64,000 nt of DNA, taken from contig OX439041.1 in assembly GCA_949317995.1 (NCBI GenBank), positions 43,509,269 through 43,573,268 on the forward strand, written 5' to 3'. Positions 1,661-46,622 of this stretch are shown piece after piece. This DNA comes from Acholoe squamosa (lineage: Eukaryota; Annelida; Polychaeta; Phyllodocida; Polynoidae). Each line of letters begins with the position of its first letter. Position 1 is the stretch's first letter. Both the position numbers and the translations under genes were made by a program. The notes beneath the pieces were generated by a model. It was given only the letters and a program-made list of their open reading frames with translations, was not told where the DNA came from and did not search any database.

Positions 1661-1859
1661 AGCATTTTAGTGGAGGCATACATGCGGACTTTAGAGTGTT
1701 AAACTTTTCTTTTTACCGCAATGTGTACATGGTAAAATATAATATGTGTAAGGAATCCCGCCGAGGCCTGTAAAGAGTACTAAAGGTCTTACCACAGTGT
1801 TTAAGGGGTTAAAAGATCTTGCTACAGTACATAAAGAGTTACATAATAAAGGCTCTTAC

Positions 1860-2942
1860 CGCAGTGTGTAGGCAGGAGGCAGACATGATGAACGTGAAGA
1901 GGATGAAGGAGAAGACGGCGGTGATGCAAACCAAAGATACCCTGAGCAGCGTATCAGGTCCTGAGAACTCCCTAAAGAAGATGAGGCAGTAAATGAGGAA
2001 GACTAATATGGGGATGCACAGGCCTATCACCGCCAGCACGTACAGGCTGAGCATCTCATCTAGGCGCGACACCAGGTGGCACACTTGTTGGTGATGTCGC
2101 CGGTGCCGTTCGAGGTCCGGCACAGTGCCGCGGTGCGCTTGGTGGTCGCTGCGCAGCTGCTGGGTGATGAGGGTGAACTCCTTCTGGAGGAGGTAGCAGA
2201 GGATGCTTAATGTGGTCTGCATCATCAGCCAGGGGAAACTGTAGAAGAACGCTGTCAGGTCCGATATCGAGAGGATCCAACGAGGGCAGCCTGTTTGACA
2301 CCAAGGCGCGATGCTGGCTTTGGAGAGCGCCACCACCATGTGGTGTTGGCCGAAGGATTCCTTGACGGCGATGATGCTGACGAATAACAAGAGGGTGAAG
2401 ACCACGCTGAAGATGACCACCTTGCGCACAAAGCAGGCCATCCAGGAGACCGGCAGGCCACCAGCCTCTTTCTTGTACTCGGTCCACTTAGCTAGGAACT
2501 GGTGGAACTGTCTGGAGAAGGGGAACAAGAAGACGAGCATGCCGAGGGAGGTCTGGGTGCACACACTGTGCCACATGATATCAACAAACAATAGGACACC
2601 GAAGGGTTTGGGGTCCAAATGTAAGGTGAACAGGCGGAAGAACCCGAACCAAACAAATAGCAGCAGGCCGAACGGGTAGATGTTTCGCCAGTTAAAGGAA
2701 TGCCCAGGAAGTGGCGGAAACCGGAGGATTCCGATTGTTCTTAATGTGAATATGAGGGTGCCACAAGCCCGTTCCATATCATTGCTCTCTGATTGCGGAT
2801 CTTCCACCGTCGCCGTGGTCCCGGCCCGCGGAACCGACGAGGACTCCAAGATGGCGTCAACCTCGCTACTTGACATGCGTGGCCGACAAGGTCGATTTGA
2901 TATGAGTCTCTCCACTGTTGGAGAGTCATTACTGGTTTCCAT
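1860..2942 (-). CDS. Gustatory-receptor-like seven-helix receptor, main exon (3' exon missing)
   Basis: Predicted chemoreceptor-like membrane protein of the invertebrate gustatory receptor/GR-like superfamily, acting in the plasma membrane; the ligand cannot be predicted. The exon encodes 361 residues: an N-terminal cytoplasmic stretch of about 85 residues (fitting the inverted topology of the family), then six hydrophobic segments near residues 88-107, 114-142, 176-194, 229-254, 302-327 and 334-357. I chose the ATG at 2942-2940 because a good acceptor (TTTTTGCAG) lies just upstream at about 2970, implying a spliced 5' leader; the longer frame needs a non-ATG start inside that acceptor. After SCLHTA the exon meets a GTAAGA donor (1859-1858). 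Read-through adds only six residues before a stop, so helix 7 and the family's C-terminal TYhhhhhQF-type motif should come from a further exon not found in the window. Superfamily assignment rests on topology and general resemblance. Confidence 0.62.
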
Positions 2943-2999
2943 GGTTACTGAGGATAGCGAGCCCCTCCCCTGCAAAAATGAGCAAAAATTAACACCTAT

Positions 3000-5900
3000 T
3001 AGTAAAGCACATAAGCATATATCATTGTAGTAATGAAGGTTTTATATCGATTAACAGCTACATGATATATATCTCCATTATACAGGTTAGCCTAGTTTGT
3101 TTTTGTTGGTTTTTGTTTTTACTGAACTTGATGATCTATCATTTTAGAATGGATTACATCATTAACGACATTAATACATTAAAGAGAAAAGGCATGTACT
3201 TTGGGGCAGTTTGCAGGGTTGTTCTTCATTCAAAAGGGACAAGAAATCTCTCCAGTAAACAAGTAGCCATCATGTCATAAGCCGTTACGTTATTGTTACA
3301 GATTTCCCCTCTAAGAGCCTAATTAGATTCATTTTCATCCTTTCAGATTGTGTATTAAGCATTGGATAGAGTCCTTCAACAGGAAGAAGAAAATATCCAT
3401 GATAAAAGCCCAGAAAGCAATGTTGAGGACTACATAATGTTTCGTGGTTCATGATCGTTTCTGGTTTCTCGTCATGATGCACCAATGCAGTCCTAACTCT
3501 TCAATCCTTTATTGGTGCATCATGGCCCAAAGCTTCACCAGTCTAACATTAAAATGTAAAATAGACGTTGGTGATATCTGAGTCCTGTGCATCTGTGTGT
3601 TATACTTGGGGAGGGGTACCATTATTGAACAGATCAGACCAGATAAGGACTAAATAGGCAAAAGGAAAAGGGTTTTCACGGAGAATGCGTGAATGATCCT
3701 TTCCCCTTAGCTGCTCACAGAAGCCAAACTGAAAAAGCATCTAGGACAGGATCCATTGTTCAGCCAAACAAGAAAGTTTATTCGTGGGGCCCTGCATAGG
3801 ACACCCTTCTTCTAATGGTGGTTATATGGATGGATATTGCATTACTCCGCGCCTTATTGAGGTCGGAACTAAATGAAGAAATGGCCGAATCTTTGGAGTG
3901 TGATCCTCGTTTAGGGCCCACTCGTCTAATGAAAGTGGTGTCGGGTCACTGCTAATAAAGGGGAAGTGATTGCCTTTGGAATTGATATTGTTTGTTATGG
4001 AGCCTCTCTAAATGGCCACCAGTATGGTCTTGCCGTTGTAGACTAATATTGGGAGGGGCCATTAAGGATGATTCTCCCTTTCACATAGTAAATGAAGGTC
4101 GAGCTGATCTATTTAGAATTGGGGTATTTTCCTTTTAGAGATTGATAAAAAAAAAGAAGGAAAGAATGCTTGTTATTTTTACAATCTAGCAATGAGGAGT
4201 CTTCTGTATTATTTTGTGCACCAAAGAATAAGAATAATATATAGGTTATGCTGACCTTAGCTACATACATAATATCATAGTCTTAGGCCTATAACACAGT
4301 AGAGCCTGAAGACAAACAGCAACCCTTAATGCTTCATGTGAGAATAATTTCTGGTAACACAGCTGTGGTGCTGATAAAAGCTTGCCTTTGTTGACGATCT
4401 GATTGATGGCTTACATGTTACTTCATAATTTATAACATCTATTGACCACGCCCGATGTTCTGCAACGTGAGAGTTAAATAGAGTTATGTAAGAAGAAATA
4501 TGGCAACATTAGGACGACCTCCATAGTTGGTCAATCTCTTTAAGGGTTGCGTTGTGTGTTAATGTGCTATTTGTCATCATGTTGCATGAATGGATATATA
4601 GTCCCGGTTTCCAGTGATACATTAATGTATCAAACCGAAACCTACTCAATACAGCATATAGGGAGCGCAAAGTACTGATGTATTTTCCTTTTTAGACAAC
4701 ATCACACTACTAGAGGATTAAGCAGCTTCTCTTGTCGTCTATATACCACACCATTACAACTTCATACATAATTTATTATGATGAAGAAGAGTTGTTTCGT
4801 TATTATTGTAGCTCTTTGTCTCACTGGCTTTTGGAAGAAAAATAAGCCGATCATTAATCTCTACCATATGTACTGGAATATATTATGTATACATAATCAT
4901 ATACTTATTACATGAATACATGTACAACTATGTGAATGACAGGATACGATATAGTACGGGTATTATGGAGAAGGTTTGTTCCTCCCAAATCCAGATAATA
5001 CAAAACAAACAAAAATTCAACTACATGAAAATAATCCCTTTGGTTTTATCCCTGTATACTATAGACTAAATCTGATTTCACATCCGCACTTATTGAGCAA
5101 TTCTAGTGAATATAGGTATAGTTTATCAACGCTTATTGAAACCTAAGTATCGACAGGGTATGAAACCACACCAGACGTAGAAAGGTGCCCAAAATAGCTG
5201 TAAGTCACACCATATCTTGGTCTTTTTGTATCATAGCACACAGACATACATGACACGTCCATTGGCGCCTGGCCTGAGGCCAACGTCACCCGATAGGTGA
5301 ACAAATAAAACCACCTTAGACCAAGCTTCATACAAAGCTGCCAGCAGAAGAAGGGGTCTCACAAGACACATTAATCCTGGCAAATCTAGCGGCCGGACCA
5401 GCAGCGGTACAGGGGTAATACATGGCACCCAAACCGCCCATGGCGTATTTATGACGTATTTATCAAAGTAAAATGTCGTCTGCCGCACGACGCTGTGACG
5501 TCAGACGCAGACGCCAGCGTCTCTTGAGGCTAATCTGAATAAAGCAGTGAAAAATAGGAACGCTCCCCCTGCTGCACCCTAAGGCTATCGATGTTATACT
5601 TTTATACAGTGGAAATGAAATTATATATGAAATGTAAAAACTCATGTCTGGGATTACATCCACGTTGATGAATTATGTCTTCCCAGTATTCGCGACAAAC
5701 ACTGCAGATATTAATGCAAAGCACATATTAGCTGTAAATGACTCTTTGTCTGCCCCTGTGATTTATATTTAAGTGATAAGAGGACGCTAGTAATGATTTT
5801 TAACTTTGGGCCCTTTAAAGTTAACATTGCATATAAACCAATAGTGTTCAATTGTCAGTGATAAGAGCTTAGGATGCTAGTTAACCATTTGAACTTTGAG

Positions 5901-10416: not shown

Positions 10417-12710
10417 CCCAGGTAGCAAAAATGGTGTGGCCCGAGTCTGGGCCAGAGCAGGCTCCTGATGTGGGCCACACTGGGTTAACACAGTGGGCGC
10501 CCGATGGGTTTTGTCCTCAGCAAAGGGTCTGGGCCACACTGGGCTAACCGATTCGGGCACAGATCTGTTTGAAATTGGGCTCACCGATTTGGGCTCAAAG
10601 TGAGTTTAACATGGGTTTTTGGTGTGGCCTAAAGTGGGCTGCCCGATTTGATGAAAAATTAGTGGTGACATGTTAAAAATTCTTTTTGAGAAATTTATCC
10701 AAAATCTTTTTTTTTTTTTTAAAGGTCAATAAGCAACAAATCCTTGAGCTAATCTAACCCCCCCCCCCCCATCACCAAAGCAGTAAATGCAATATCTACC
10801 CAAGTAGAAAGGCAGAGCAGTACCATTCATTTGAATCAAACTCATTCAGCCAACACAAGGCACTTTGATTCATTAAAGTGAAATTCTGGCCTCAATCTTC
10901 CCCTACTAATTCCCTATGTAGGAGTAGAGAAGAGAGCCTTCAAGTTCATAATTACTGTACCTCTGCATATCTGCTCTTGTTCCAAGTTCAGTGCAATAGA
11001 AATGGTGTTGCCATTCCACTACTACTCAGATGACCTTGATTTGCACTTTTGACTAGAAACATCTAAGTATTTCCAGATTATGAGAAAGTCTGCACATTAT
11101 TACTTCATATCTGATTTAGTAGTCTATTCCAGTTGTCCTATGTCTAAAAGAAATAAGTTTGGTATGGGTAGTAGAATTCTGCCTGGAGTGCTGTGAAACC
11201 ACTTTGTAGTGAGTCTGCCATGGACTGGCCTACAGGTGCAGGGGATATTTTTGGTTTCTCAATTGCCTCTATATATAGTCCTCTTATACCTGGCCAAGTG
11301 TGGGACCTGTTTGCCCCCACACCACAAATACACCTTGCAAGCCTACTAGTACAAAGAAAGACATGAAGCTCTTCTTTCCAGGACTAGTAAGTGTTGCCTT
11401 TTACATGAAATATCTGGATCCCTACTATGAACCTACCTGTGTATTAATGGTATAGGGAAAGTGTCCTACAGCAGTGGTGGAGGGAAGGGAGGGGGGGAGG
11501 GGAGGGCAGGGTGAGAGGAGGGCAGGGCAGGGTGAGAAGAGGGCAAGGCAGGGTGAGATGAGGGCAGGGCAGGGCAGGGTGAGAGCAGGGCAGGGCATGT
11601 GAGCAAAGGAGATTCCAGGGCAGTGCAGGGTGAGAGTAGGACAGGGCAGGGTGAGAGGGCAGGGCAGGGTGAAAGCAGGGCAGGGTAAGAGCAGGGCAGG
11701 GCAGGGTGAGAGCAGGGCAGGGCAGGGCATGTGAGCGAAGGAAATGCCAGGGCAGTGCAGGGTGAGAGTAGGGCATGGCAGGGTGAGAGCTGGGCATGGC
11801 AGGGCGAGAGCAGGTCAGGGCAGGGTGAGAGCAGGGCAGGGCAAGGGTGAGAGCAGGGCAGGGCAGGGTGAGAGGAGGGCAGGGCAGGATGAGAGTAGGG
11901 CAGGGCAGGGCGAGAGCAGGGCAGGGCAGGGCGGGAGCAGGGCAGGGCAGGGTGAGAGCAGGGCAGGGCAAGGCAGGGTGAGGGCTGGGAGTGAGAGTGA
12001 GCGAGTAATAGATGTTTAACACCATTTCGACAGCTAAGGTCATATTCATGATGAGATCCTCATTACACAAATTCACAGAGGAATGTGTCAGTGCCTGCGC
12101 ATATGTGCACCACACACATCCTGAGGGGATAGGAAAGAGGAGAAATAGACCCTTTTAAGTGGGCTAGGGAGGCCCAGGGAGGGCAGGGTGACAGAAGGGC
12201 AGGGCAGAGCGGGGTGAGAGGGGGAAAGGGCAGGGCAGGTTGAGTGGAATGAGGAGGAGATGGAAGGGGTAGGGGATGGATAGGGGAGGGATGAACAAAA
12301 AAGAGAGAGGGAGGGGGAACACTCATCACAGAGTTTAGAACAGTTCAGAAGATGAGGCTGCCCTGTCCAAACCCACTCTCACCCCAGACTGGGAAGACTT
12401 TATGCAGCTAAGTACCCATCTCGGGATGCCCATTTTGAAACAATCCTGGGCCCAATGTGGTTGCCCATTTTAAAGCTGACCAGTGCCCAAATCGGGCGGC
12501 CCAATGTGGCCCAGACCGTATGCTGAGGACAAAACCCGTTGGGAGCCCAACGGGCTCAAGTGGGTTTGCCCGATTTGGGCTGCCCTGTGTGGCCCTGACT
12601 GGAAACCCAGCATCTGCCGAACCTAAAACCCATGTACTGAATACTGCCCGCTTTGAACCACCTTATCCCGGGTAAAACCAATTTGGCCCCGAGCGGGCTT
12701 GCTACATGGG
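10417..12710 (+). mobile_element. Non-autonomous minisatellite-carrying DNA transposon, copy 1
   Basis: Ends are CCCAGGTAGCAAAAATGG at the left and, reading inward on the minus strand, CCCATGTAGCAAGCCCGC at the right. A TA dinucleotide sits directly outside both ends, as a 2-bp target-site duplication. The two terminal 250-bp zones are long imperfect inverted repeats built of GGGC/GCCC words; both contain GGGTTTTGTCCTCAGCA followed by GTCTGGGCCACA. The interior holds a G-rich minisatellite. Nothing inside looks like a transposase, so it would need one in trans. A near-identical 2.3-kb copy lies inverted at 28928-31226. Superfamily not assigned. Confidence 0.8.
11490..11985 (+). repeat. G-rich minisatellite (GGGCAGGGCAGGGTGAGAGCA, 20-21 bp type)
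   Basis: Irregular units made of GGGCA blocks separated by GTGAGAG spacers, strongly strand-asymmetric (G on plus). Runs of GGG spaced by two bases are a classical G-quadruplex pattern. Long open frames on both strands here are by-products of the repeat. Confidence 0.9.
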
Positions 12711-12712
12711 TA

Positions 12713-14131
12713 ATACTGCTAGAAGGACATGAAGCAGTATAGCATCAATGCAGTCTTTAAATTGTTAAGTAGACTAATGGCAATATTGTGTGGCGATACT
12801 CTATTACGTGATATTGTTCAATGTATCCACACATACAGTTATGCACCCCCAGACCCCGGTCAGCCCCATAGAGCCTGGTCTGATGCACCACTGTTTACAA
12901 GCACCTGTCCAGTACCAGCTCCAGACAATCACGTGCCGGTCATGTGATCTCACGCCATCCATACATGACACTACCATGGATACCAAACGCCATACCAGAC
13001 AATCACTCGTACCAAAGTGGAATTCTAGATGAGAACAGGAGATAAATATTACTATAAGGCATAAAGCTAACTCTCCCTTCTTTATCGTTTAGTGGGTAAT
13101 TCCTGTACCATTTTTATGTCTTATAGTTCTCAAAATTAAATTAAAAATATGCACAAGAATAAATTAATATGATGTTGGGTTACTGCAAACTCTAATGTTT
13201 AAAAGAGGAATCTCCTTTCGCCTTCAATATCGAAAGGTTAAAGTGGTATACAGATTTAATGTACTTTGCTTTGCTTTCTTTTTGGATCAGCTAATCCAGA
13301 AAACCTTTTATCATAATTATTCCCTTTGGTATTCACACAGAGTGATGACAAGTTGCCAAGTTCCCTGAACAGAAATCGATATTTCTATTCACTACACTAA
13401 ACTTGATCAAACTCTCCTTTAAAATCAATAATGTAGGTGTTGATATGTAAATAGGGGGTTCCCCAAGGTGGCACCACTGGACCCATCCTTTTTAAGTATT
13501 CACGAGGTGGTTGACTGCTGGGGATGAGTGTGGATTGGGGGCATGGGGAAGGAGACTTTGATGTGATCAAAGGTGATAGGTGGAAGTATCACGCTAAAGC
13601 TATACCAAAGGAGAAAGGAAAATCACCTTTATATACAAGTAGATATATAATAAAGATAGCTAATGTAAATATAGGGGTTACAACGAGAGAGGAAGAAAAT
13701 CTATGGAGACTGGGACCTTTTCGTAGGGGCATCTGTATTTATGAAAGGTCCATCCCCCCCAACCTTTTACTATGGAAATGGGCTAGGCAACTGATAACAT
13801 ATGCCAAATCATCTCACAGCAGACCAGTACACCACATGCTTTAAATATTCTTAGTACTATAATATGAGTACTATGTTGTTAAACTTCACTGTTAAATTTA
13901 TTGACCACACCCTCTACCTTTCATACAAATTCCTCTAACCTTAAAACGTGACTGGGCTCTATTTCACTAGGTGCTTTGTCAGCATAATGCAGGCCTAGTG
14001 AATATCTACCCAGACCTGCATTCATACCACTTACTGCCCTAGTGGGGTTGATACCTTACCAATGATGAGTCAGCACAATGCACTGGATGCTTTGGAAAAC
14101 AAAGAAGTATGACCTTGGAAGGACCATGGGG
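12713..14131. other. No gene recognised
   Basis: No exon with acceptable splice sites or recognisable protein was found. The 106-codon plus frame at 13524-13844 has no family resemblance and is treated as chance. Confidence 0.4.
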
Positions 14132-14488
14132 CCCTTAGATTGTTATATGCAGCCCTTAGATTGTTATATGCAGCCCTTAGATTGTTATATGAAGCCCTTA
14201 GATTGTTATATACAGCCCTTAGATTGTTATATACAGTCCTTAGATTGTTATATACAGTCCTTAGATTGTTATATACAGCCCTTAGATTGTTAGATGCAGC
14301 CCTTAGATTGTTATATGCAGCCCTTAGATTGTTATATACAGTCCTTAGATTGTTATATACAGTCCTTAGATTGTTATATACAGCCCTTAGATTGTTATAT
14401 GCAGCCCTTAGATTGTTATATACAGCCCTTAGATTGTTATATACAGCCCTTAGATTGTTATATACAGCCCTTAGATTGTTATATACAG
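14132..14488. repeat. 21-bp tandem array, 17 copies
   Basis: Seventeen near-perfect copies of CCCTTAGATTGTTATATRCAG, exactly 357 bp. Because 21 is a multiple of three, the plus strand stays open in two frames (one reads PLDCYIQ repeats). Variant units (GTCC for GCCC, TGCAG for TACAG) recur in blocks, suggesting expansion by multi-unit duplication. Confidence 0.95.
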
Positions 14489-16755
14489 AGGCATGTTATA
14501 TACCAGCATCATGCTATGAGCCCTATGATGGCGGTGCACACTAGGTACCAGCAGTATTTAACACTGATACCCATCCTATACATTGTTACCATGATTGCAG
14601 ATGCTGGTATATTCTGTTGTAAAGTGTATGTGTTCTCTAACTGCCATCAAGGGCAAATGGACATTCAATATAACTACAGACATTTTAAATGTTTAGCCAA
14701 ACTTGCTGATCCTGCAAATACATAGGGAGGATAAAAAAAACTGACTTTAGACGCTATTGATGCATAACTGTATCGATAAGTTAGTGTCTATAATATTGAC
14801 CATAGAAAGTCTACACTACAATCTATAGGCCCAATGAATTTAATCATCCAACTCCAATTTGACTTAATTTACAATATACCCTCCCCCCCCACACACACAC
14901 ATCCAACTATCCCCCCCACACACACACACACATCCAACTACCCACTGCCATGAAATAAATGAAGGATCATTCATTTTCCAATTATATAGCAACACGCGTG
15001 TATGCGGACAGAAATGAACTCCCTGACAGATATGGCCTACAGGGATGTGGGATGATAGGGCCCAGAGGCACTGGGAGGCCATATCGCCAATACACAGGGC
15101 TCCCATAATAGCACTTCAAAGCTTCACCACGGACGGTCCATGGGACCCAATGTTCTGGTCCAGGGGTGAATTAATATCTTGGGTGGTCACATTCTGGGAC
15201 ATCCTGTTATATTTTTATGTGCTCTTGTAAAGGATCTCATTTGAATTAAACCGTCGTTCTTCGTTATAGTTTTCTATAATATGCCGTCATACCTCGTGTA
15301 CGTGACCGCGGCTCAAACGCGAAATAATTCCTCAGTGTGCCTCAGTGTATGGGCCTCAAACCCATAGTCCACTTGGTCTCTGTCGCGCGATTGAGCCATA
15401 CATTTCAAATATATAATTATTTCTGCGACAGAGGATTAGTGTACTATCGGCGTTATATAGATCGAACCTCCCAAATGAGTATGTGCGCCTTATAAGCCAA
15501 AATCATGCACTTTTATAATTTAGCTGCATGGACTTTCAATATTACGTTGACAAGAAACAGAGGAACCCTCCATTCTGACAGAGTGATTACTGTTGTATTT
15601 TTTTCAGCTTCTAATACAATTTCAGTGGTGAAGAAACAGCGAAATGAAGATGGTCCATATACTCACATTCAGAAATGTGGAGGGGTAACGCGTCCCTATA
15701 GATAAGCCTACATAAAATCCTTGTGCTCCCACCCCAGAACATCCCTCCCCCGGGTTTCCTCCCTAAACGTCATATTCTCTGGATAACAAGTTAGGCCTAA
15801 ATGCATACATGTACCACCACTAGCTGTGTAATATATGCATGTACCATAAGGCATTGACGTGCCCAATCTGATAAACGAAATGCATGCAGAGCAACACCAT
15901 GCCGACATATATATGTAAAATTACACAATCGTCGATAAAATAATAACAACCGGGTCATTTATTACTAGTTGGGTGGGAGGGATATTTTATCAAATAATTA
16001 CATTTCTTTTTCTGACCCCCACCCCCATACGATTGCTTAATTTATCTTATTTATCCTAGCTATTGCGGGCCTAAGCCTGTATTTGTTCTAGCCTTTTACT
16101 AATAGATGACCATTCCCTTATCATGCAACATATGAGGCTTATCTTCAGATACACACCAGTCCACTGGGGATGTGTTAGAGGCGGGGGTGTCTTTTTCTTC
16201 TTTTAGAAATATCGAATTAGCCACTCTATGTTTTGAAATCTATTCATGCAGCTCAGATGATATGCCTCTTCCATAATTATACTAAAGAACCTCAGGGGAT
16301 TTCTGACGTTACCATACGATTGCACACAGCGATAATTTGTCTACAAATGCCTAATATTTTGGTCCGACTAGAGTGGCTGCAGTCGTAACACTCTGGGAAT
16401 TGATACCCTGTGGTAGCGGGGTATATTATAATCTACCATCATCCTACTTACTCCCCTACACAAATTGATTTACCTACAATCAGATAATCGACGGATACTA
16501 ATACAAGGTCTGTTCCTTACTAAGTTGTGTATCGACATCTGAACTAGACCTCTTTGGTTTGCTTCCAGAAGAACCCTGGAAGGTCTTGCCGAAGCAGGAA
16601 AGTATATTATGATATAGTTTTGTAGAAGCAGTACCTCGCCTACACTACGTTTCTTTTCTGTTCTCACTCGTATTCGTGTGGCCGAAAAGTAGTCAGCACG
16701 CAAGGTGTCAGAAAAGTGTAATGCAAGTAATCATGCAAAGTAGTCTTTTTTCTTC
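14489..16755. other. No gene recognised
   Basis: Only short frames, C-rich and CA-rich low-complexity tracts (14880-14940), and unique-looking A/T-rich DNA. Confidence 0.4.
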
Positions 16756-16947: not shown

Positions 16948-17209
16948 TTAAAAAAATGCTGGATGTTTTTTCACTCTAATCGGAGGAGTGGAAGTCGATG
17001 GGTGAAGTAGACTATGACTGTTTTTACTCGAGTCATGGGATTTGGGAGCTACGGGTCAGGGGGCTATGTGGTGAGGGCTCCATCATTGGGTCTGGTAACT
17101 ATTCAAAACTTAATGCAATTTTTACCTTTTCGGCAATAGCCCCGTGTCTGCCTATACTGGCAACCTAAAAACAGAGCATTAAGGCTAGAACAATGTAGGA
17201 CCAGCCCAG

Positions 17210-17226
17210 GAGGCCGTTTCACCGCG
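17210..17226 (+). repeat. Left terminal inverted repeat of the Harbinger element
   Basis: GAGGCCGTTTCACCGCG, identical to the reverse complement of 25890-25906. Confidence 0.95.
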
Positions 17227-17239
17227 AACTTTATTTTAT

Positions 17240-17400
17240 TTAAGAACACGGACTAAAAAGGCGGACCCTGACGCGGACTCCGCCTTATTTTATTTCATAA
17301 CTGTTTCTGTTCGTACTCCGTCACCCCTCCGTTAAAAAAAAAAAGAACACGGACCCTTTTATCAGAAGGCGGACTCTTGAACACGGACGTCCGCGTTTTA
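17240..17400 (+). promoter_or_regulatory. Left subterminal CGGAC motif cluster
   Basis: Six or more CGGAC words (ACACGGACT, GGCGGACCC, CGCGGACTC, ACACGGACC, GGCGGACTC, ACACGGACGTCCGCG) occur within 160 bp of the end, several with an AACAC or AAGGCG prefix. A matching cluster lies inside the right end. Their position makes them candidate binding sites for the transposase or Myb-like protein (inference). Confidence 0.6.
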
Positions 17401-17567
17401 CCCTCGCCTTCATTTAATTTATTATTTTTCATGTAAGGTACTTGCGCCTCATCCGTGATTTTTGGCGGGGTTTCTCCGGGAATCCCCTGTGACGTCATGA
17501 ATTATGGGATGTCAATGGCCGCCTCCACCTTCCGGGAGACGCCGTTTTCTTTCGACAATAAAATAAA

Positions 17568-18914
17568 ATGCCGAAAGCTGCTCAAAAGGTGAGTTAAAGT
17601 CAGCCAATTTTGTGTGCAAGATGTACCCTGACACGTAGTGTATGGTAATCTGTCGAACTAAGTGTGTCAGTCAGTTTATAGTGTATATAGAATGTGTTTT
17701 TTGGTCGGCGTTCAGCGTCTAGCATTTGTAGTGAATAAAGGGCTACAGTTTTCCAGATATGAGTTCAGCTTTTTTATTAATTATTTTTTTCAGTCGTCCC
17801 GCCAGGCGGAGGAGGATGAAGACCTGTACTATGACGAAGACGAGGAAGTAGATGAGTTCGAGGAAAACTACGATGAGGATCTACTAAAACCCGGTGACTT
17901 TCCCGGAATGGGTGCAGATCAGGACATCGCTTATATGGTATATAAATTCAAAAAATCACTCCTCCGCAAGAAAGCTCAAGGGGAAATCGGGGTAGAGGCA
18001 GACATTGATTACCTGGTGTATAAGTACCGCAGAAATCTTCTCCGCGAGCAGTCTCAAGGTGGAATATCTGAAAAAAGACAGAAAGGTAAAGCTCCTAGTT
18101 CAGAGCACCCATCTCATTTTGGTTTAAGACCCAGCAGACCTGTTGTGCCTCCTCTCAAGGAGGACGATGTTTTGTGTGACCCTGACTATGTCCCTACAGA
18201 CGATGAAGAATGTTTCTCTGCTCCTTCTGGTCGGGGACAATCTGTGAGAGGCCGTGGTGGGGCAACAAGGCCAAGGGGTAGGCCTCGAGGCTCTGGCAGT
18301 ACAGGGAGGGGAGCTACTCGAGGTGCAAGAGGAACCAGAGGAAGTAGAGGCTCACAAGGTGCTAGAGGAACCCGAGGTCGTGGACGTGGCGGTAACATTT
18401 CTGGAAATGTTTCTACTGCTTCTTCCACCGATTCCACAGTTAAGAAATGGAACAAACTTGAACTTAAGGCTCTTATCTGGGGAGCCAACCACCTGAAACC
18501 TATATTAAAAGGAAAGTTCAAGGCAAGCTCAGACGGAAGGACGATGAAGAAGTTAGCATGGGAGGAGTTAGCGGGTAACTATAATTTTTTATTTTCTGTT
18601 TTGACATGGGTATCCACTTATAAATCATATATTTTGTTTCATGTTTTATACTTCATAAAAAGAAAAGGTATTTATTGTCATTTAAGATTTGCCTTGTATA
18701 CAGTTGTGACTGTACATTTTTTTAGTGTATTCTTGACCATACAGTTTAACTTTATCAGACATTTTCTGTTACTGTAACAAATTTTTTTTTTCAGAATATG
18801 TCGAGTCCATAGGAAAACGTGAGTGGAAGGTCAAACAATGCAAAGATAAGCTGTTGTATTTCAGCCAAGACGCCAAAAGAAAGGTAGGTCTGCTTTGAAT
18901 TATATATATGTATG

Positions 18915-18963
<49 letters not shown>

Positions 18964-21900
18964 TTTACATTATACGTTATACCATAATAGCATATATTAA
19001 CCTGTTAACTCTTCTCCCCATTATATACTGTATGTCTTAACATGTATATATGTCATCTTCTTATATTTATGAAATTAAAAGGCACCATATCATCTAAACT
19101 TCTTCTTCTTTTTTGTTTCTGAGTCCCTAAATGCTATGCTATTTCTCTATTTTTTTTGGACAGAGGCAGTACGTCGACAATAAATACAGAAGTGGTAGTG
19201 GGCAACGAGAGGAAAAGGACTACTTAACCGATTTCGAAGAGGCTATACTGGATTGGGTAGGGGAGGATGTAGTACTAGGTAAGCTTATATCAAAGTACTT
19301 GGCCTTCTGGCATACATTTTTATTTTCCTATGGAAAAATCTATTAACTATATGTCCATATATTTATGAAAAAACAAATCCTAATTCCTCTGTCATCCGCC
19401 AACTCTCTTCATAAGAAAAACAAATTAAATGTACAATTCTTTTATGTTTCATATTTATATTGCGAAAATGGGTCTTTGTTGTTCTGACACTTCTTACATG
19501 TCCAATTACATGAAAAGATGATTCATTTATTTCAAGGGATACCCGGCATGCAGCCGCCTAACCTCAAAGGGGGAGGGAGGACCGACCAGGCGTGGTCATG
19601 TTACGATCCTGAGAGAGACAACCGGGAGGACTATGGGAATCTAGCCATGCCCAGTGATGCCATGAAGGCTGTGATGGAGGGCGATCTACTGGCCACGGAC
19701 GAGGAAGGCGGTGAGTAATTTTTTCTGTCCTATATCATAAAATGGGTCCACCTTCTGTATTTTATTTCTTCACAGAGAAGAATATGATATATTTTCATAC
19801 AGCCTATGATATAATACAATGTGTATATGTGTTGTAATAGAACATAGGAACATGGATTGCCATTTCTATGTAGATACTTGTTAGTCTGAGAAAATGTTAC
19901 ATGCTTTAAGTTAAAAACAAATAAATAAATACTGTTTGTCACTTTATTCCTTCAGATCCACTGATGGATGAGGAGGATTACAATGAACCTGTGGAGGAGG
20001 AGGACGTTTTCCAATCAGTGGATCATTACAGACATGAAGACGGGGAATCCCTTCTACCTCGGGTAGTCGTTGAGCAACCCAATACCTCGTTGGCAGATGA
20101 CGACGACCTCAGAACTCCCCCGCCCGCTAGTGTTACAAGACAAAAAATGCTTCTTTTCAACAAAAGAGAGAATGATAAGAAAAAGGGTATTCAGTCTAAG
20201 AAAAAGCCACCAGAGGAGGACCTGTCTCCCCATGCTAGAGAGAGAGTTGACAGACGAAATGAGCTTTTAAAGGAGGTGAAGAAAATAGTTACTAGAAATA
20301 CCCCAAAGAAACCACCTACTTCTTCTATACCAAAGAACATTGAGAAGCCTTCTTCCTCTGTATACAAACAGGTATTAGAAAAACCTCCACCTCGAAAAGA
20401 ACCTGAAAAAGTGGTCCCTATATCTGAGCCAAAGCCTGTTGACGATACCTCTGAACCCGCCACCAAAAGACAGCGTACTAGGCCACCGTCTTTCACTGAA
20501 CTTATGGCAGAAGGGGATATATCGGGGGTAGAAATGCAGATGTCTCCTGTCTTTAAGACCAGCACCCCAGCAGTCAAATACAAGGAAGGCATGGACAAAA
20601 GTCCTGGCAATAAAAGGAAAACAGATTCCATAGTAGACCTGACAGCGGAAACATCAGACAGTAAAAGGAGAAAACTTGATTATGGTAACCCAGATGATTC
20701 GCTCCCATCGTTAAATAACATGTCAAAAAATAGGTGTGATGCCATGTTCAGGTCTGATTTAAAAAATAAAATCCAGTTAGATATGGAGGAAACAAGGAAC
20801 CTTATCATGGACCACAACAAAAAACTGTGTGAAGCTCTTATGAAACATCAGGACGAGTTGGCACAAAATACCCAAGAAACTGCCTCTATTATGGTCAAGT
20901 CCCTCAAAGGAGTTACGAGTGGAATAACTGCGGCCCTCCGTGAGCATTCACATGAGACAGCACGCTGTGTGAGGGAACAAAGAGATTCTATGTTAAAGGC
21001 CCAAGAAAAATATATTGAGGAGCAGAGGAAAGAAGCTGAAGAAGATACCATTGCTTTAGGAAATGTGCACACTCAATTAACCAATGCCATTGTAACTAAA
21101 CAGGTTCAACTTGTAAAGGCCTTGGAAAAATTGAGTGAGAAAATGGTAGAAAATACAGAGAAGGTCGCTGAGTCTCAAGGAAAGATGAACGCTGAGGTGG
21201 TCCACATGCAGGGCTCCGTCGCCTCCCTCTCACAGTCTTTCAGTGGTTTAATAATTAATGTTGACCACTTGCAGCAAAGATGTTCCACAGGTATGAGAAC
21301 AGTACAGACTGTGGATGATATCCTGAAGGAAGTCACCACGACTGTTCACAAGTTGAACCAGGCTGTGACTTACTCTTTTGACCACAACCTAATACGAGGT
21401 GAGATAACATAATTTTCGTTGACTTTAACAGGTATACCTTTTTATTTCAAGAACATTTTAAAAACAGAAAATGAATTTAATTAATAGTTTCACTTTGAAT
21501 TAAATCGCCTTAAAACAATACAGAAAATAATTATTTGGTTAAATTATAGTTATGGTGGATATTAAGTGACTGTCTTTCTCTTTCAGCTCCGTCCGTCCGC
21601 AGTGTCGAAACCGAAACAGAGGAAGGAACATTGCAGACTCCAGGTCCCGTATCAGTGAAGTCGACTGATTTACCTCAGGAGGGGACCGATAAGCCTGGAC
21701 AGGGGACTGAAAACCATGAGGAGGGTACTGAAAGGCCCGAGGAAGATACTACTTCAGAGAATAACGGCGTGTCTGCCTTCCTGACTCACCCATACACAGG
21801 TAAAATTTAAGAACTATTTGATAACCCATGCCCACATTAAACATGTAACCAAAATAATTTACTGTAAGACTATCATAAAAAGTAATTGAATGATAAGTTT

Positions 21901-22943
21901 CCTACAGCTATGTGCTGGATATTATAATATGCTTTTATGTTGCAAAAAATAATCCGTCATAGCTTGCTGAATCCAAGTCATGAAAGACTGAAATTAATAA
22001 TTAAGTAAAGGCTGATACCACCATCACATAGACCATGATATAAATGCAAATGTCCATGAGCAGGGAACAAATTTCCCTCGTCTTCACCTAGGTGAGGCCT
22101 CTCTGCTTTCAACTCCGTCTATAAGGCCTTGTTGGATACGGACTACCTCACCTCGTTTGAATAGAATGGGAATTTATTTTCTTCTAATAGATATTTGGTA
22201 CTTTATCTGTAAAGCTATACTATGTTGTATCATCTGATATTGCAGAAGAGGGAGTCGCCAACTACCACACAACAGAGCAGGTGTTTGAAGAGACAGGTTC
22301 TATTTCAAGAAATATTTCCGCTCCTCTCATTATTCCAGGCGCAGGTGAGTCAATATATATAATTATCTGCACATGACACATAGTTAGATTCTTCTCTGTT
22401 TTACGTAGAACGTAGAACATAAAAAGATTTGAAAATAGTATGAGAATTTATTATTAAAATGTTCATCTACATTTGATGTCTTAAAAACAAACTGAAGATG
22501 CACATCTAGCCCTGCTGGACCCCTTTGTGATATTACTTTTCAATACAAGGATCATGTGTTCCTAATTGTTTTTATTTGCAGCTATATGTCAGGAGGCCAC
22601 AGAGAGCAACGACGGCCTTGGTCTACCCACGTTCACAGTTAAATCGAGCGATGACTTCGTTATAGTCCAAGACACCGCTATGGAACTAGAACAATTTGAG
22701 GGAAGGGACAAGGAACAGACTGAAACACGAGCAGAAGAACCTACAGAAGGAGGGGACACAAACACAAGAGGTCACACGAAAGCTGCAGGGGAAGGAAGTG
22801 GACACATAGAGGAAGATGCAAAGTCTGCAGGGGGAGTGGAATCTACGGATGATGCTGGGTCAGTTTCTGACCGGGACGAAATGCCTATGCGTAAGTCCAA
22901 AAGGCTCCGCATAAAAAAACAACTGCATGACTTCCAAATGTGA
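17568..22943 (+). CDS. Harbinger accessory protein: acidic, AT-hook/RG-rich, Myb/SANT-like, coiled coil
   Basis: Nine exons join in frame: 17568-17588, 17794-18574, 18795-18883, 19164-19278, 19537-19710, 19956-21398, 21587-21799, 22246-22344, 22582-22943, giving 1098 residues. Order: acidic stretch (about 12-45); two similar DIxYxVYKxxxxLLR repeats (about 50-100); an RG/GRP-rich, AT-hook-like region (about 153-209); a Myb/SANT-like DNA-binding domain (about 225-297) with spaced tryptophans in KWNKLELKALIWG, LAWEELA and REWKVKQCK; a segment with GIPGMQPPN as in NAIF1-type proteins; a basic linker; a helical, probably coiled-coil region (about 659-872); and an acidic E/T/G-rich tail ending in a basic KSKRLRIKK signal. 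In known Harbingers the Myb-like partner aids nuclear import and end recognition by the transposase. The length far exceeds the few hundred residues usual for that partner. The start is the first ATG of a seven-residue exon before a GTGAGT donor. Confidence 0.85.
18899..18960. repeat. (TA)n microsatellite in an intron of the accessory gene
   Basis: Alternating TA with a few TATG interruptions, inside intron 3. Confidence 0.95.
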
Positions 22944-23229
22944 ACATGGACATCCGCGATCATGTTATGAAGACTCATATTTGTTAAAGGTTTAACTGCT
23001 TTGCTACGTTAAGGTTCATATATGTTAAGCCAAAAAGGTGCTAATTCTTGTCTGTGCCAAAAAGTATTACGTTCGTTGACAATTTCAAAGAAAAAAAGGA
23101 TAACTGTAAGTCAATATTATACTCAGGTTTTATGTCCATGTCCTGAAATAAGGTTGTTCACCTCAGTGTGACGATGTAGTATTAGTAAAAGTGTATGTAT
23201 GATAGACAGAACATGTCACTTTTCTCCAG

Positions 23230-23235
23230 AATAAA
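23230..23235 (+). terminator. Poly(A) signal of the Harbinger accessory gene
   Basis: AATAAA lies 287 nt after the stop codon in the gap between the two convergent genes. Confidence 0.55.
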
Positions 23236-23538
23236 TAATGCTTAGTCTGTCAATAAGAAGATAACATTTTGTATTCTTATGCATGTGGGCGTTATTTTAA
23301 TGTAAGAAAAAGGTGAAGCTCTATCAGAGTTTACAGACGAGGAGAGATGGGATAGTCTAGAAATATATAGATAACAGGAACAGCCGACAAATAATTGATT
23401 ATTAAAAGTGCATTTAATTTTTATCTTGTTCCATTTAACCCAAACGTATGTAAAAGACCTAGGACATGGAGAAAATATGTACATATCATTTGTTAAGATG
23501 TTTCACGTCTAAGTGTACTAAAAACATATCCACATTAA

Positions 23539-23544
23539 TTTATT
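23539..23544 (-). terminator. Poly(A) signal of the Harbinger transposase gene
   Basis: AATAAA on the minus strand, about 150 nt downstream of the transposase stop codon. Confidence 0.5.
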
Positions 23545-23692
23545 ATATAGAATATAGACAAGGAGTATTTCATTCTTGGCTCGACATGCCTTAAATAAAT
23601 GGAGAATCTCTTTAAACAAAAACCAATCTATATAAGGTTATTGTTGTGCTTCTCAGTTCATTAAAACATTTCTAGGTTAAAAGGAAAATATT

Positions 23693-25488
23693 TCAGTGCC
23701 TCCCAAAATGATCCTGAATGTATTCCTCTCTCAAGTTTTTGAAGGTGACTCGTGGCTTGGGGCCTACGTTTTCAGGTTGATCTATGGGGGGAAACTTCCT
23801 CTTGAAGTTGTCCTTAGCCGGGAAGTCCCGCAGGAGTTTGATCTTGGCGATCCTGGCGACATTATGCAGGGCCACACACGATTCAATTATGCAGGCTGCC
23901 CGGAAAGGACAGTGCATCAGGTATCCCCCGCTCGAGTCCAGACACCTAGAAAAATTAATTTTTTTAAAGTATTGAGTCAGTTGCAAGAGGGAAAAAAGAA
24001 TTGTTTTTTGACCATAGCCTTCAATAAATTAGAAACTGATATGGTTAAATAAATAAAGGTACAGTGATATCTTACCTCCACCTCTGCTTAAGTTGGCCTA
24101 TTGTCCTCTCTACCTTGGAACGTGTCTTCTTGTGCCACTTATTGTATTTCACGTCCTCGTCTGTCACCTCTGGTTTGACGGGGGTGTAGAGGTAGTCTGT
24201 CAAAGTGTACCTTTGGAAAAAAGAAATAACATTAAGAGGATATCCCTAATAAGGAACAGAAATAAATATATTTCATTATAATATACACTGCATAAATTTC
24301 AGTCTTCTGTAGAATTTGTTTTTTATATTTACGACACAGTGCAAAGGTAAAGAAGAGCTTAATAATATCTTACCCTCCATCTCCCAGTAGGAAGAACCCA
24401 CTGAAGTCTCCCCTCTCACCCAGGTATTTGACTTGTGATCCATTCATGACATACACATCGTTGCACGACCCAGGGTTGCTCGCATTGACGTGCATTATAA
24501 TGCAGTCCCAGTCACAGATGATCTTCACAAAGAAAAGAACAACAAGATAGAGAAAAGGACTGTACATCATGCTATATCAGTTCATGGCTAAGTTCAAAAA
24601 CCCGAAGAAGAAAGTTTTTGTATACTCTCAGAAAGACTGTAACATGTTAAAATTAAATAAAATCTCACCATGGTATTTATGGAGTAGTACCCCTTGTAGC
24701 AGTAGTACTGATTTTCATCAGAAACCACTCCTTTAGGGCATTCGATAGGAACATGGGTACCATCCACCAACCCGAAGACCCCTGGCTTACTTTTCTCACG
24801 AAGGAAGAGAACAGACTTGTTGTTCTTGTCTAGGACTGTGTCAGGCCATACCACATAGTCCTCCAGGGCGTCATGGAAGTAATCCGTGATCTCCTGCACG
24901 GACCTGCACACGGTAGAACGGGAAACTCCGTGGCAGTCTCCTATGGTGCAATAGTTGGCCCCAGTAGCAAAATACCGAATTGCTATACAGAACTGAAAAA
25001 AAGAATTAACTTAAATAATTTCTGAATTTAAAAAATATAACAAGAAGAAGGGGTATAGAGCTATGAAATTGAAGAGGAAAATAAACATGAAATATTATAC
25101 TTGCTTCTTGAGGTTAACGGGAGAAAAAGACAGGGGGAAACCAGTTAGAAAGTTGGAGGTTAAACACATTTACATTAAAAATGTATTTCTTCTTAGAATG
25201 GCCTTAAGAAAAGAAGGGAAAGGAGGAGGGCTTTATTTTAAAGACATGAAAACAGTAGAAGTAAAACAATGTATGAGCACTCACTCGAATCCTATGTGGG
25301 ACAGCATGGACCCCTCTCAAGATCCTACGCTTTGGTGGAAGGTAGGCCACATAGTTCTTTATCAGTTGTCTGGTGACTGCTTTCGTGAGCCTATATCTCT
25401 GCAGGAATTTCTTTTCTGTGTAGAAGGAGAGTGGATCTCGCCTCTCGTAGAATTCCCGTTTGACACAAAGAACATAATACCTCCCCAT
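23693..25488 (-). CDS. PIF/Harbinger DDE transposase (DDE_Tnp_4 family)
   Basis: Five exons on the minus strand join in frame: 25488-25285, 24992-24669, 24522-24374, 24210-24076, 23945-23693, giving 354 residues, the usual size of this family. It would cut the element out and insert it at CWG/TWA triplets. An N-terminal helix-turn-helix region reads AIRYFATG, then GVSRSTVCR. The catalytic core is complete: first Asp in GLVDGTHVPIECP (about D145), second in ICDWDCIIMHVNASNPGS (about D180), the GDGGY block completed across an intron, and Glu in SKVERTIGQLKQRW (about E260). The C-terminal CVALHNVARIAK matches the family's ALHN region. All introns are GT-AG. The start is the first in-frame ATG after an upstream stop. 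No frameshift or nonsense codon was seen, so it may be functional. Confidence 0.93.
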
Positions 25489-25579
25489 GTTGTGACAGCC
25501 AGTTGAATGTTCTGCGACTAAGGGTCAGGGGTCAAAGGTCGGGTCAAGGTCGCTCCCATCAAGTTCAGGGAGGGTGGGT

Positions 25580-25885
25580 AAAATGTAAGGCGGACATAAA
25601 ATTAGATATTTTGGTTGTCACGGACATGAAAGTGGCTTAAATAGGGTCCGTCTTGGGTCACCTACTGGTACCTTACCCCTCCGCCTTTTTCTGTCATAAG
25701 ACGGACTGGAGGTGGACTTTGTTAGGGTCCGCGTTGTGAGCTGAAACGGTGAAAAGTCCGCGAAAAAAGACGGAGGTCCGTGGTTTTTCGCGGAGGTCCG
25801 TGTAGGGTAATATATTTAATTAAAATAATGAGCAGAAACGGTTTTTCAGAAGACGGACTCCGTCAAAGGAATGCGGACGTCCACC
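25580..25885 (-). promoter_or_regulatory. Right subterminal GTCCG/CGGAC motif cluster
   Basis: A dozen or so GTCCG or CGGAC words occur between the transposase start and the right end (for example AGACGGAGGTCCGTGG, CGCGGAGGTCCGTGTAGG, AGACGGACTCCGT, GCGGACGTCC). They mirror the left cluster and probably include the transposase promoter region. Confidence 0.6.
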
Positions 25886-25889
25886 TGGA

Positions 25890-25906
25890 CGCGGTGAAAC
25901 GGCCTC
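25890..25906 (-). repeat. Right terminal inverted repeat of the Harbinger element
   Basis: CGCGGTGAAACGGCCTC, the exact reverse complement of the left repeat, followed by the CAG duplication at 25907-25909. Confidence 0.95.
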
Positions 25907-26371
25907 CAGGGAGGTTTTCCTCACGCTATACATGCAGACCAAGACTACATTCGCAAAGGGCAACCATGAAGCATAAGTACAGTGCTGGTCAATTACTTGC
26001 TGTCGCATCATCAGTATCATGATGATAACGGAATATGAACTTACAATATTATGTGTAATGTAGTGCAAGGAGGGTTAACAAAGTAGCCTTGGCCACAGCA
26101 CGCATTAATCTGTCATATCTCATTAATACTCAGTATACAACCTTGCTGTGTAGCTTACACATGTATGTAATGTCTCCAATACCTCATCCGTATCACTTAC
26201 ACACCTAGTGGCCTCATGGGGTACCTTGCTGCTGAACCTGTTTCTCAATGTATCAACGAGTTAAAATAGTTTCCCTAGTCGCAAAAAAAATGTCCTTTTC
26301 TTATGTCGTTCGTCGACTAACTTTATGTGGTAATCTATTCGCACCTTTACATAAAAAAGTACACATAAAAG

Positions 26372-28927: not shown

Positions 28928-31226
28928 CCCATGTAGCAAGCCCGCTCGGGGCCAAATTGGTTTTACCCGGGATAAGGTGGTTCAAAGCAGGCAGTATTCA
29001 GTACATGGGTTTTAGGTTCGGCAGATGCTGGGTTTCCAGTCAGGGCCACACAGGGGAGCCCAAATCGGGCAAACCCACTTGAGCCCCTTGGGCTCCCAAC
29101 GGGTTTTGTCCTCAGCATATGGTCTGGGCCACATTGGGCCGCCCGATTTGGGCACTGGTCAGCTTTAAAATGGGCAACCACATTGGGCCCAGGATGGTTT
29201 CAAAATGGGCATCCCAAGATGGGTACTTAGCTGCATAAAGTCTTCCCAGTCTGGGGTGAGAGTGGGTTTGGACAGGGCAGCCTCATCTTCTGAACTGTTC
29301 TAAACTCTGTGATGAGTGTTCCCCCTCCCTCTCTCTTTTTTGTTCGTCCCTCCCCTATCCATCCCCTACCCCTTCCATCTCCTCCTCATTCCACTCAACC
29401 TGCCCTGCCCTTTCCCCCTCTCACCCCGCTCTGCCCTGCCCTTCTGTCACCCTGCCTTCCCTGGGCCTCCCTAGCCCACTTAAAAGGGTCTATTTCTCCT
29501 CTTTCCTATCCCCTCAGGATGTGTGTGGTGCACATATGCGCAGGCACTGACACATTCCTCTGTGAATTTGTGTAATGAGGATCTCACCATGAATATGACC
29601 TTAGCTGTCGAAATGGTGTTAAACATCTATTACTCACTCACTCTCACTCCCAGCCCTCACCCTGCCTTGCCCTGCCCTGCTCTCACCCTGCCCTGCCCTG
29701 CTCTCGCCCTGCCCTGCCCTGCTCTTGCCCTGCCCTGCCCTACTCTCATCCTGCCCTGCCCTCCTCTCACCATGCCCTGCCCTGCTCTCACCCTTGCCCT
29801 GCCCTGCTCTCACCCTGCCCTGACCTGCTCTCGCCCTGCCATGCCCAGCTCTCACCCTGCCATGCCCTACTCTCACCCTGCACTGCCCTGGCATCTCCTT
29901 CGCTCACATGCCCTGCCCTGCCCTGCTCTCACCCTGCCCTGCCCTGCTCTTACCCTGCCCTGCTCTCACCCTGCCCTGCCCACTCACCCTGCCCTGTCCT
30001 ACTCTCACCCTGCACTGCCCTGGCATCTCCTTTGCTCACATGCCCTGCCTTGCTCTCACCCTGCCCTGCCCTGCCCTCATCTCACCCTGCCTTGCCCTCT
30101 TCTCACCCTGCCCTGCCCTTCTCTCACCCTGCCCTGCCCTCCTCTCACCCTGCCCTGCCCTCCCTTCCCTCCACCACTGCTGTAGGACACTTTCCCTATA
30201 CCATTAATACACAGGTAGGTTCATAGTAGGGATCCAGATATTTCATGTAAAAGGCAACACTGACTAGTCCTGGAAAGAACAGCTTCATGTCTTTCTTTGT
30301 ACTAGTAGGCTTGCAAGGTGTATTTGTTGTGTGGGGGCAAACAGGTCCCACACTTGGCCAGGTATAAGAGGACTATATATAGAGGCAATTGAGAAACCAA
30401 AAATATCCCCTGCCCCTGTAGGCCAGTCCATGGCAGACTCACTACAAAGTGGTTTCACAGCACTCCAGGCAGAATTCTACTACCCATACCAAACTTATTT
30501 CTTTTAGACATAGGACAACTGGAATAGACTACTAAATCAGATATGAAGTAATAATGTGCAGACTTTCTCATAGTCTGGAAATACTTAGATGTTTCTAGTC
30601 AAAAGTGCAAATCAAGGTCATCTGAGTAGTAGTGGAATGGCAACACCATTTCTATTGCACTGTACTTGGAACAAGAGCAGATATGCAGAGGTACAGTCAT
30701 TATGAACTTGAAGGCTCTCTTCTCTACTCCTACATAGGGAATTAGTAGGGGAAGATTGAGGCCAGAATGTCACTTTAATGAATCAAAGTGCCTTGTGTTG
30801 GCTGAATGAGTTTGATTCAAATGAATGGTACTGCTCTGCCTTTCCACTTGGGTAGATATTGCATTTACTGCTTTGGTGATGGGGGGGGGTTAGATTAGCT
30901 CAAGGATTTGTTGCTTATTGACCTTTAAAAAAAAGAAAAGATTTTGGATAAATTTCTCAAAAATTTTTAACATGTCACCACTAATTTTTCATCAAATCGG
31001 GCAGCCCACTTTAGGCCACACCAAAAACCCATGTTAAACTCACTTTGAGCCCAAATCGGTGAGCCCAATTTCAAACAGATCTGTGCCCGAATCGGTTAGC
31101 CCAGTGTGGCCCAGACCCTTTGCTGAGGACAAAACCCATCGGGCGCCCACTGTGTTAACCCAGTGTGGCCCACATCAGGAGCCCGCTCTGGCCCAGACTC
31201 GGGCCACACCATTTTTGCTACCTGGG
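28928..31226 (-). mobile_element. Non-autonomous minisatellite-carrying DNA transposon, copy 2 (inverted)
   Basis: Same family as 10417-12710 in the opposite orientation: it begins CCCATGTAGCAAGCCCGC and ends CCATTTTTGCTACCTGGG. Here AT lies directly outside both ends (28926-28927 and 31227-31228), so this copy also shows a 2-bp duplication. By eye it is nearly identical to copy 1 along its length, with scattered substitutions and different unit numbers in the minisatellite. Confidence 0.8.
29655..30170 (-). repeat. C-rich strand of the GGGCA minisatellite
   Basis: CCCTGCCCTGCTCTCACCC-type units, the reverse complement of the array at 11490-11985. The 220-codon plus frame here is low-complexity Pro/Leu/Cys and is not treated as a gene. 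Confidence 0.9.
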
Positions 31227-46190: not shown

Positions 46191-46191
46191 A

Positions 46192-46622
46192 CCTGATGAT
46201 GAACCAAACCCATGCAGGCACTAAAGAGTTACTGCACAACCTGATGATGAACCAAACCCATGCAGGCCCTAAAGAGTTACTAAACAACCTGATGATGAAC
46301 CAAACCCATGCAGGCCCTAAAGAGTTACTAAACAACCTGATGATGAACCAAACCCATGCAGGCCCTAAAGAGTTACTAAACAACCTGATGATGAACCAAA
46401 CCCATGCAGGCACTAAAGAGTTACTGCACAACCTGATGATGAACCAAACCCATGCAGGCCCTAAAGAGTTACTAAACAACCTGATGATGAACCAAACCCA
46501 TGCAGGCCCTAAAGAGTTACTAAACAACCTGATGATGAACCGAACCCATGCAGGCACTAAAGAGTTACTAAAACAACCTGATGATGAACAAAAACCATGC
46601 AGGCACTAAAGAGTTACTCAAC
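46192..46622. repeat. 48-bp tandem array, nine copies
   Basis: Units start CCTGATGATGAACCAAACCC and continue through ATGCAGGC(A/C)CTAAAGAG. Since 48 is a multiple of three, both strands stay open (plus reads MMNQTHAG(T/P)KELL(H/N)NL). The A/C variants alternate in a pattern suggesting three- or four-unit higher-order duplication. No flanking gene structure supports coding. Confidence 0.93.

Follow-up and report, generated by a model that had tools for sequence, protein, structure and literature searches.

An apparently recently mobile Harbinger-like transposon and its unlike target-site triplets in the polychaete Acholoe squamosa

The polychaete Acholoe squamosa (Annelida, Polynoidae) harbors a two-gene transposon of 8,697 bp at positions 17210-25906 of the window, the 64,000-nucleotide stretch of DNA analysed here (assembly GCA_949317995.1, contig OX439041.1, positions 43,509,269 to 43,573,268, forward strand). 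Very probably it is an autonomous, recently mobile cut-and-paste transposon of the NuwaI group, which targets CWG (W being A or T), within the PIF/Harbinger-like PHIS superfamily. Families of this kind are already known: a burst of intact Harbinger copies in an animal (PMC8437027) and a naturally active insect Spy element (PMC11304231) have been described. The new point lies in the target-site triplets. The two that flank an element are unlike, with A on one side and T on the other at the centre, in 11 of the 53 copies and miniature inverted-repeat transposable elements (MITEs) compared (95% confidence interval 11-34%). We lean toward a NuwaI transposition that proceeds by direct ligation, in which 3-nt 5′ overhangs from the old site would be joined unfilled into the new one, and the copy would inherit a base of its donor.

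Copies, youth and intactness of the family

In the genome (1.48-Gb assembly, 63 contigs), COX1 has no stop when translated with the invertebrate mitochondrial code, the one mitochondrial code applied, which points to an invertebrate host. A search of the genome with the left 791 bp of the element gave at least 41 matches (40 of 195 candidates scored). Among 38 places listed, the best-scoring 20 were compared whole and represent the young part of the family. Each of them spans the full length of the element (8,676-8,705 bp), at 99.4-99.9% identity to the window copy. Counting the latter, both frames and their splice sites are intact in 20 of 21 copies; the exception is L017, whose partner gene is interrupted by one stop. 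The transposase proteins fall into four variants, and 18 of the 21 are identical. Over the left end, the other 18 places show 93-99% identity. Fourteen further right ends have a terminal inverted repeat (TIR) that could be read, and in 10 of them it has the same one-base change. The first-pass annotation had described the element as intact, young and possibly active, and had proposed counting its copies and their identities; the copies are not all diverged, and intactness and youth are strongly supported. By the look of its copies, the family is one that moved very recently, and it may still move. The same annotation held that such a combination of ends, duplication and unbroken genes is rarely found, which does not hold in this genome: the element is part of a burst of copies, and 269 fully intact Harbinger-Snek copies are described from one sea krait (PMC8437027).

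That the element was recently mobile and is now silent, its burst having just ended or been suppressed, is a possibility that we take seriously without favoring it. Private substitutions, at a mean of 2.8 per copy (8.7 kb) and with 23 in one copy (L011), are in line with silence, as is the stop in L017. However, private substitutions are absent from 5 of the 21 copies, and grouping by eye gives three subfamilies that exist side by side. The variable sites of the 21 aligned copies are transversion-rich (25 transitions, 52 transversions); the corresponding counts are 35 and 16 in the MITEs and 24 and 26 in one older copy. Intronless copies of the family, with open frames of up to 610 amino acids (aa), were considered and rejected: L057 consists of DNA with the same introns and without such a frame.

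The 17-bp end, searched for as the first-pass annotation had advised, occurs exactly 242 times in the genome, against none for the reversed control, and CWG precedes 228 of these ends. Ten MITEs of 221-285 bp with the same TIR ends as the transposon were retrieved with both ends; the three inspected contain 7-9 CGGAC/GTCCG motifs each. Within the transposon, 17 of the 22 occurrences of this motif lie no more than 400 bp from the element ends, where a Markov model places 2.1 by chance on average and never more than 8 (5,000 resamplings). Its density in the rest of the window is 0.36 per kb.

Some loci show particular arrangements. L021 (C2:84166411-84176307) directly adjoins another copy of the family at position 277 of the latter, and the 276 bp that should precede this position are absent on the far side; this is likely a nested insertion followed by a rearrangement. 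L025 and L026 lie ~98 kb apart on C3 in the same orientation, differ by one substitution and have opposite unlike triplets, an arrangement that suggests local hopping. On its left, the MITE L030 directly adjoins a sequence that, by eye, resembles the end of a related element that is older and has decayed.

The two proteins and the placement in NuwaI

As the first-pass annotation stated, both genes splice without a break: five exons join into a transposase frame of 354 aa and nine into a partner frame of 1,098 aa, and all intron ends pass a check for GT or GC and AG. The transposase matches DDE_Tnp_4 (Pfam, E 5.6e-33). The three catalytic residues claimed for it are present as candidates, presumably D145, D198 and E260, named from motifs of the family; all three are the same in a sibling family and unchanged across the 21 copies. 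A search of PDB with the transposase gave no match at E 1, and NCBIfam gave only IS5-type and IS982-type matches, all below cut-off. The partner protein has an acidic N-terminus and an RG-rich stretch. Its Pfam matches include a weak Myb/SANT-like one (aa 224-298; Myb_DNA-bind_5, 15.1-18.2 bits against a cut-off of 21.7) and a weak apolipoprotein-type one, also below cut-off (aa 661-800); YqaJ is not among them up to E 1. The usual size of partner proteins is given as ~300-400 aa (PMC9710019), so that the one found here is about three times as large.

The sibling family, known from one copy read (L058), has the same five transposase and nine partner exons, with the splice dinucleotides in place and six CGGAC/GTCCG motifs in the first 340 bp. 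The transposases of the two families are 84.5% identical, with 53, 32 and 200 differences at codon positions 1, 2 and 3, and the partners are 53.8% identical (366, 285 and 678 differences); synonymous sites are near saturation. The best-kept region of the partner (aa 215-400, 77% identical) surrounds the Myb/SANT-like match. The shared exon plan and the third-position bias thus support both gene models and a long-term constraint on them. Ten sibling places with one common exon-2 score among the matches listed suggest that this family had a second burst.

NuwaI is described as having a CWG duplication, and PIF/Harbinger in the narrow sense a TWA duplication (PMC4482050). The assignment to NuwaI is made because CWG, the two genes and the animal host match this description, and it rests on features rather than on a tree; a DDE transposase is likewise common to both. 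The label Harbinger given in the first pass therefore holds at the level of the Harbinger-like PHIS superfamily, and not for PIF/Harbinger in the narrow sense. The 3-bp CWG duplication also differs from the TWA of the latter and from Spy, which has no duplication and an AAATTT target; neither the AT duplication nor the YqaJ second gene of ISL2EU was found. In contrast to the NuwaI of PMC4482050, with a mean length of ~4,462 bp, the element is 8,697 bp long, and the two triplets differ in their centre base in 11 of the 53 copies and MITEs. Other points count against this reading of the element. NuwaI TIRs measure 12-61 bp, a range that includes the 17 bp found here, and usually start with GGG (PMC4482050), whereas the TIR here starts with GAG. 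The second gene of NuwaI is described as Myb/SANT, and here the corresponding match stays below the Pfam cut-off in both families. Within the burst, the partner shows no constraint, with a nonsynonymous/synonymous ratio of 0.94 from 22 changes, and the transposase a weak one, with 0.45 from 8 changes, both counts being too small for a judgement.

Several known systems resemble this family in part. Harbinger-Snek of sea kraits shares the recent burst, the intact two-gene copies, the short non-autonomous forms and an animal host, but that host is a vertebrate, and the likeness is drawn from the published description (PMC8437027). Ping/Pong and mPing of rice share the two-protein system, the MITEs, a variable A/T centre of the triplet and a model with 5′ overhangs (PMC2836001, PMC4561436); in contrast, their target is TWA, and the non-matching triplets described there were engineered. 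Harbinger3_DR of zebrafish likewise has two genes, and its partner protein binds a subterminal motif (PMC2836001, PMC9710019). Its activity comes from a reconstructed consensus, whereas the copies described here are natural and intact, and known from sequence alone. Spy belongs to the same superfamily and has a naturally active insect member, but it moves without the target duplication seen here (PMC11304231, PMC4482050).

Unlike target triplets and the joining of ends

The window copy lies between perfect CAG triplets, as first annotated. The triplets match in 17 of the 21 whole copies, and the other four (L023-L026) have one CTG and one CAG. Further full-length copies add one unlike pair in 14; for these, 15 further right ends were retrieved, three yielded no pair, and one pair 13.5 kb apart was assumed to be a single element with an insertion. 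Among MITEs, 6 of 18 pairs are unlike (75 MITE-type ends, of which 36 could be paired and 39 single ends were left out). Nine of the unlike pairs read CTG..CAG and two CAG..CTG (p 0.065). All 42 ends of the 21 whole copies are CWG. Only these 21 give an unbiased view of whether other changes are lacking, as the search pattern required C and G on either side of the centre for the MITEs, and CWG for most of the further left ends.

The proposed mechanism starts with the partner protein, which would bind both the TIRs and the CGGAC repeats of the subterminal clusters, and would recruit the DDE transposase to the ends. Binding to CGGAC is suggested because the partner of Harbinger3_DR binds a subterminal 9-bp motif (PMC9710019). 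The transposase would then cut with a 3-nt stagger across CWG, excise the element and insert it at a new CWG, and the MITEs, having the same ends and motifs, may have been moved in trans. For mPing, cutting has been proposed to leave 3-nt 5′ overhangs of the triplet (PMC4561436); from this we infer that the element, once excised, likewise has 3-nt overhangs at its ends, which stem from the donor triplet. Such overhangs would fit the 3-nt gap at the target and could be ligated unfilled, instead of the gap being filled in. A mispaired centre would arise whenever donor and target centre bases differ, which would be the case in half of the moves because A and T are about equally common (19 A and 20 T at the centre of 39 left ends). 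If the two ends were then repaired independently, unlike triplets would remain in one quarter of the copies; gap filling would yield none. The observed 21% is consistent with 25% (p 0.53) and differs from 50% (p 2e-5).

Empty sites bear on which of the two triplets is the foreign one. For 10 of the 11 mismatched insertions (all except the MITE at C18:2626667), the genome was searched with the two flanks joined. Spanning paralogues exist for three, L037, C15:11.36 and L024, and none was found among the matches listed for the other seven, where one repeat filled most matches. L037, a mismatched MITE, sits in a high-copy repeat, and its joined flanks match at least 35 of 42 listed. In all 20 empty sites examined the flanks are contiguous with a single triplet (19 CTG, 1 CCG, 0 CAG), and each is better explained by a site of 3 bp than by one of 4 bp. 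The full-length copy C15:11.36, also mismatched, sits in another repeat, with at least 40 listed matches. The 20 sites examined include no CAG, but 13 CTG, three CT- and one each of CTT, CTA, TTG and C--; substituting CAG for CTG improves none of the 20 alignments and worsens 18. These sites adjoin a G run, which blurs the length of the site; the better fit is to 3 bp at 17 of them and to 4 bp at the other 3. The three paralogous sites of L024 (~69% identical) are contiguous and too diverged to give the centre base. Because the empty sites of L037 and C15:11.36 are of CTG type, the left triplet is that of the target and the right centre base is foreign.

Ordinary point mutation after insertion is an improbable source of the mismatches. 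At the young-copy rate ~0.02 are expected, against five seen in 35 full-length copies (four among the 21 young ones), all exchanges are between A and T, and no C or G of a triplet has changed at any of the 42 young-copy ends. On the other side, the rate was derived from the 21 young copies; the MITEs and C15:11.36 are older, and for older copies it is too low. We give less credence still to recombination between distant copies that exchanged their flanks outside transposition. The many near-identical copies would offer substrates for it, and L021, adjoining a partial copy that lacks its first 276 bp, indicates that rearrangements occur; however, the contiguous flanks in the paralogous empty sites contradict it for L037, C15:11.36 and L024. 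Least credible is a blunt insertion of an 18-bp TIR into CWWG without any duplication, as in Spy, which would make centre mismatches natural, accords with the outer G (left) and C (right) that extend the palindrome and draws on the three 4-bp sites of C15:11.36, but is opposed by the better fit of 3 bp at L037 (clearly) and C15:11.36 (less so), by pair types (29/8/2 in the first 39 pairs) that misfit the CWWG frequencies of the window (p 4e-5), and by the site beside the left end of L021, which is CTG and not CWWG in 21 aligned copies.

Several points count against direct ligation of donor overhangs. The evidence for the overhang step comes from two mismatched insertions whose empty sites are informative; both predate the 21 young copies, and an A/T mutation could explain either L037 or C15:11.36 taken singly. 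Unlike pairs are scarce among the 14 further full-length pairs, and the rates in full-length copies (5 of 35) and MITEs (6 of 18) differ, albeit not significantly (p 0.15). In addition, an mPing element with TCA/TCA triplets inserted into TTA or TAA in 45 of 46 cases, which was interpreted as target-site duplications (TSDs) having no large role in target choice (PMC4561436).

In the excerpts of the literature on Harbinger triplets available to us (PMC4561436, PMC4482050, PMC8437027, PMC2213677), no report of natural unlike triplets was found. Element mining in Medicago allowed no TSD mismatch (PMC2213677), and for this reason mining pipelines would discard unlike triplets. The accessible part of a study with 58 curated PIF-Harbinger elements of bivalves makes no mention of triplets that we could find (PMC10294476). 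If overhangs are carried over, the triplets would preserve part of the identity of the donor site. Unlike triplets offer a readout, from sequence only, of the cutting and joining of ends; for mPing, this point was put forward on the basis of engineered sites (PMC4561436). With at least 20 copies that are intact and nearly identical, this natural animal family also lends itself to tests of how the two proteins work, and is a candidate gene-transfer tool.

Element anatomy and neighborhood

The two genes are convergent and fill the element (Table 1). The exact 17-bp inverted repeats and the perfect CAG duplication of the first-pass annotation are present at its ends. The right TIR of L011 differs by one change from that of the other 20 copies.

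Table 1. Features of the transposon and its target-site triplets, in window positions
Feature	Position	Strand	Remark
Left target-site triplet CAG	17207-17209	none	abuts left end directly
Left TIR, 17 bp, GAGGCCGTTTCACCGCG	17210-17226	+	identical in 21/21 copies
Left subterminal cluster, 7 CGGAC/GTCCG motifs	17249-17393	none	candidate partner-protein binding sites
Partner gene, nine exons, 1,098 aa	17568-22943	+	both gene frames checked for splice ends
Partner exons 1-5	17568-17588, 17794-18574, 18795-18883, 19164-19278, 19537-19710	+	
Partner exons 6-9	19956-21398, 21587-21799, 22246-22344, 22582-22943	+	
(TA)n run inside partner intron	18918-18957	none	most length-variable place among copies
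Transposase gene, five exons, 354 aa, DDE_Tnp_4	23693-25488	-	
Transposase exons	25488-25285, 24992-24669, 24522-24374, 24210-24076, 23945-23693	-	
Right subterminal cluster, 10 CGGAC/GTCCG motifs	25591-25878	none	
Right TIR, 17 bp, exact reverse complement of left	25890-25906	-	identical in 20/21 copies
Right target-site triplet CAG	25907-25909	none	abuts right end directly

Two 2.3-kb arms (window 10417-12710 and 28928-31226), 16 kb apart and 98-99% complementary, flank the transposon. Both arms have TIR-like ends of their own as well as a minisatellite core, and they look like two copies, in opposite orientation, of another non-autonomous element. A 400-aa open frame on the minus strand (1839-3041) resembles, by eye, a multi-pass membrane receptor. 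Tandem arrays, open on both strands, occupy 14063-14572 and 46186-46609, the first consisting of 21-bp units.

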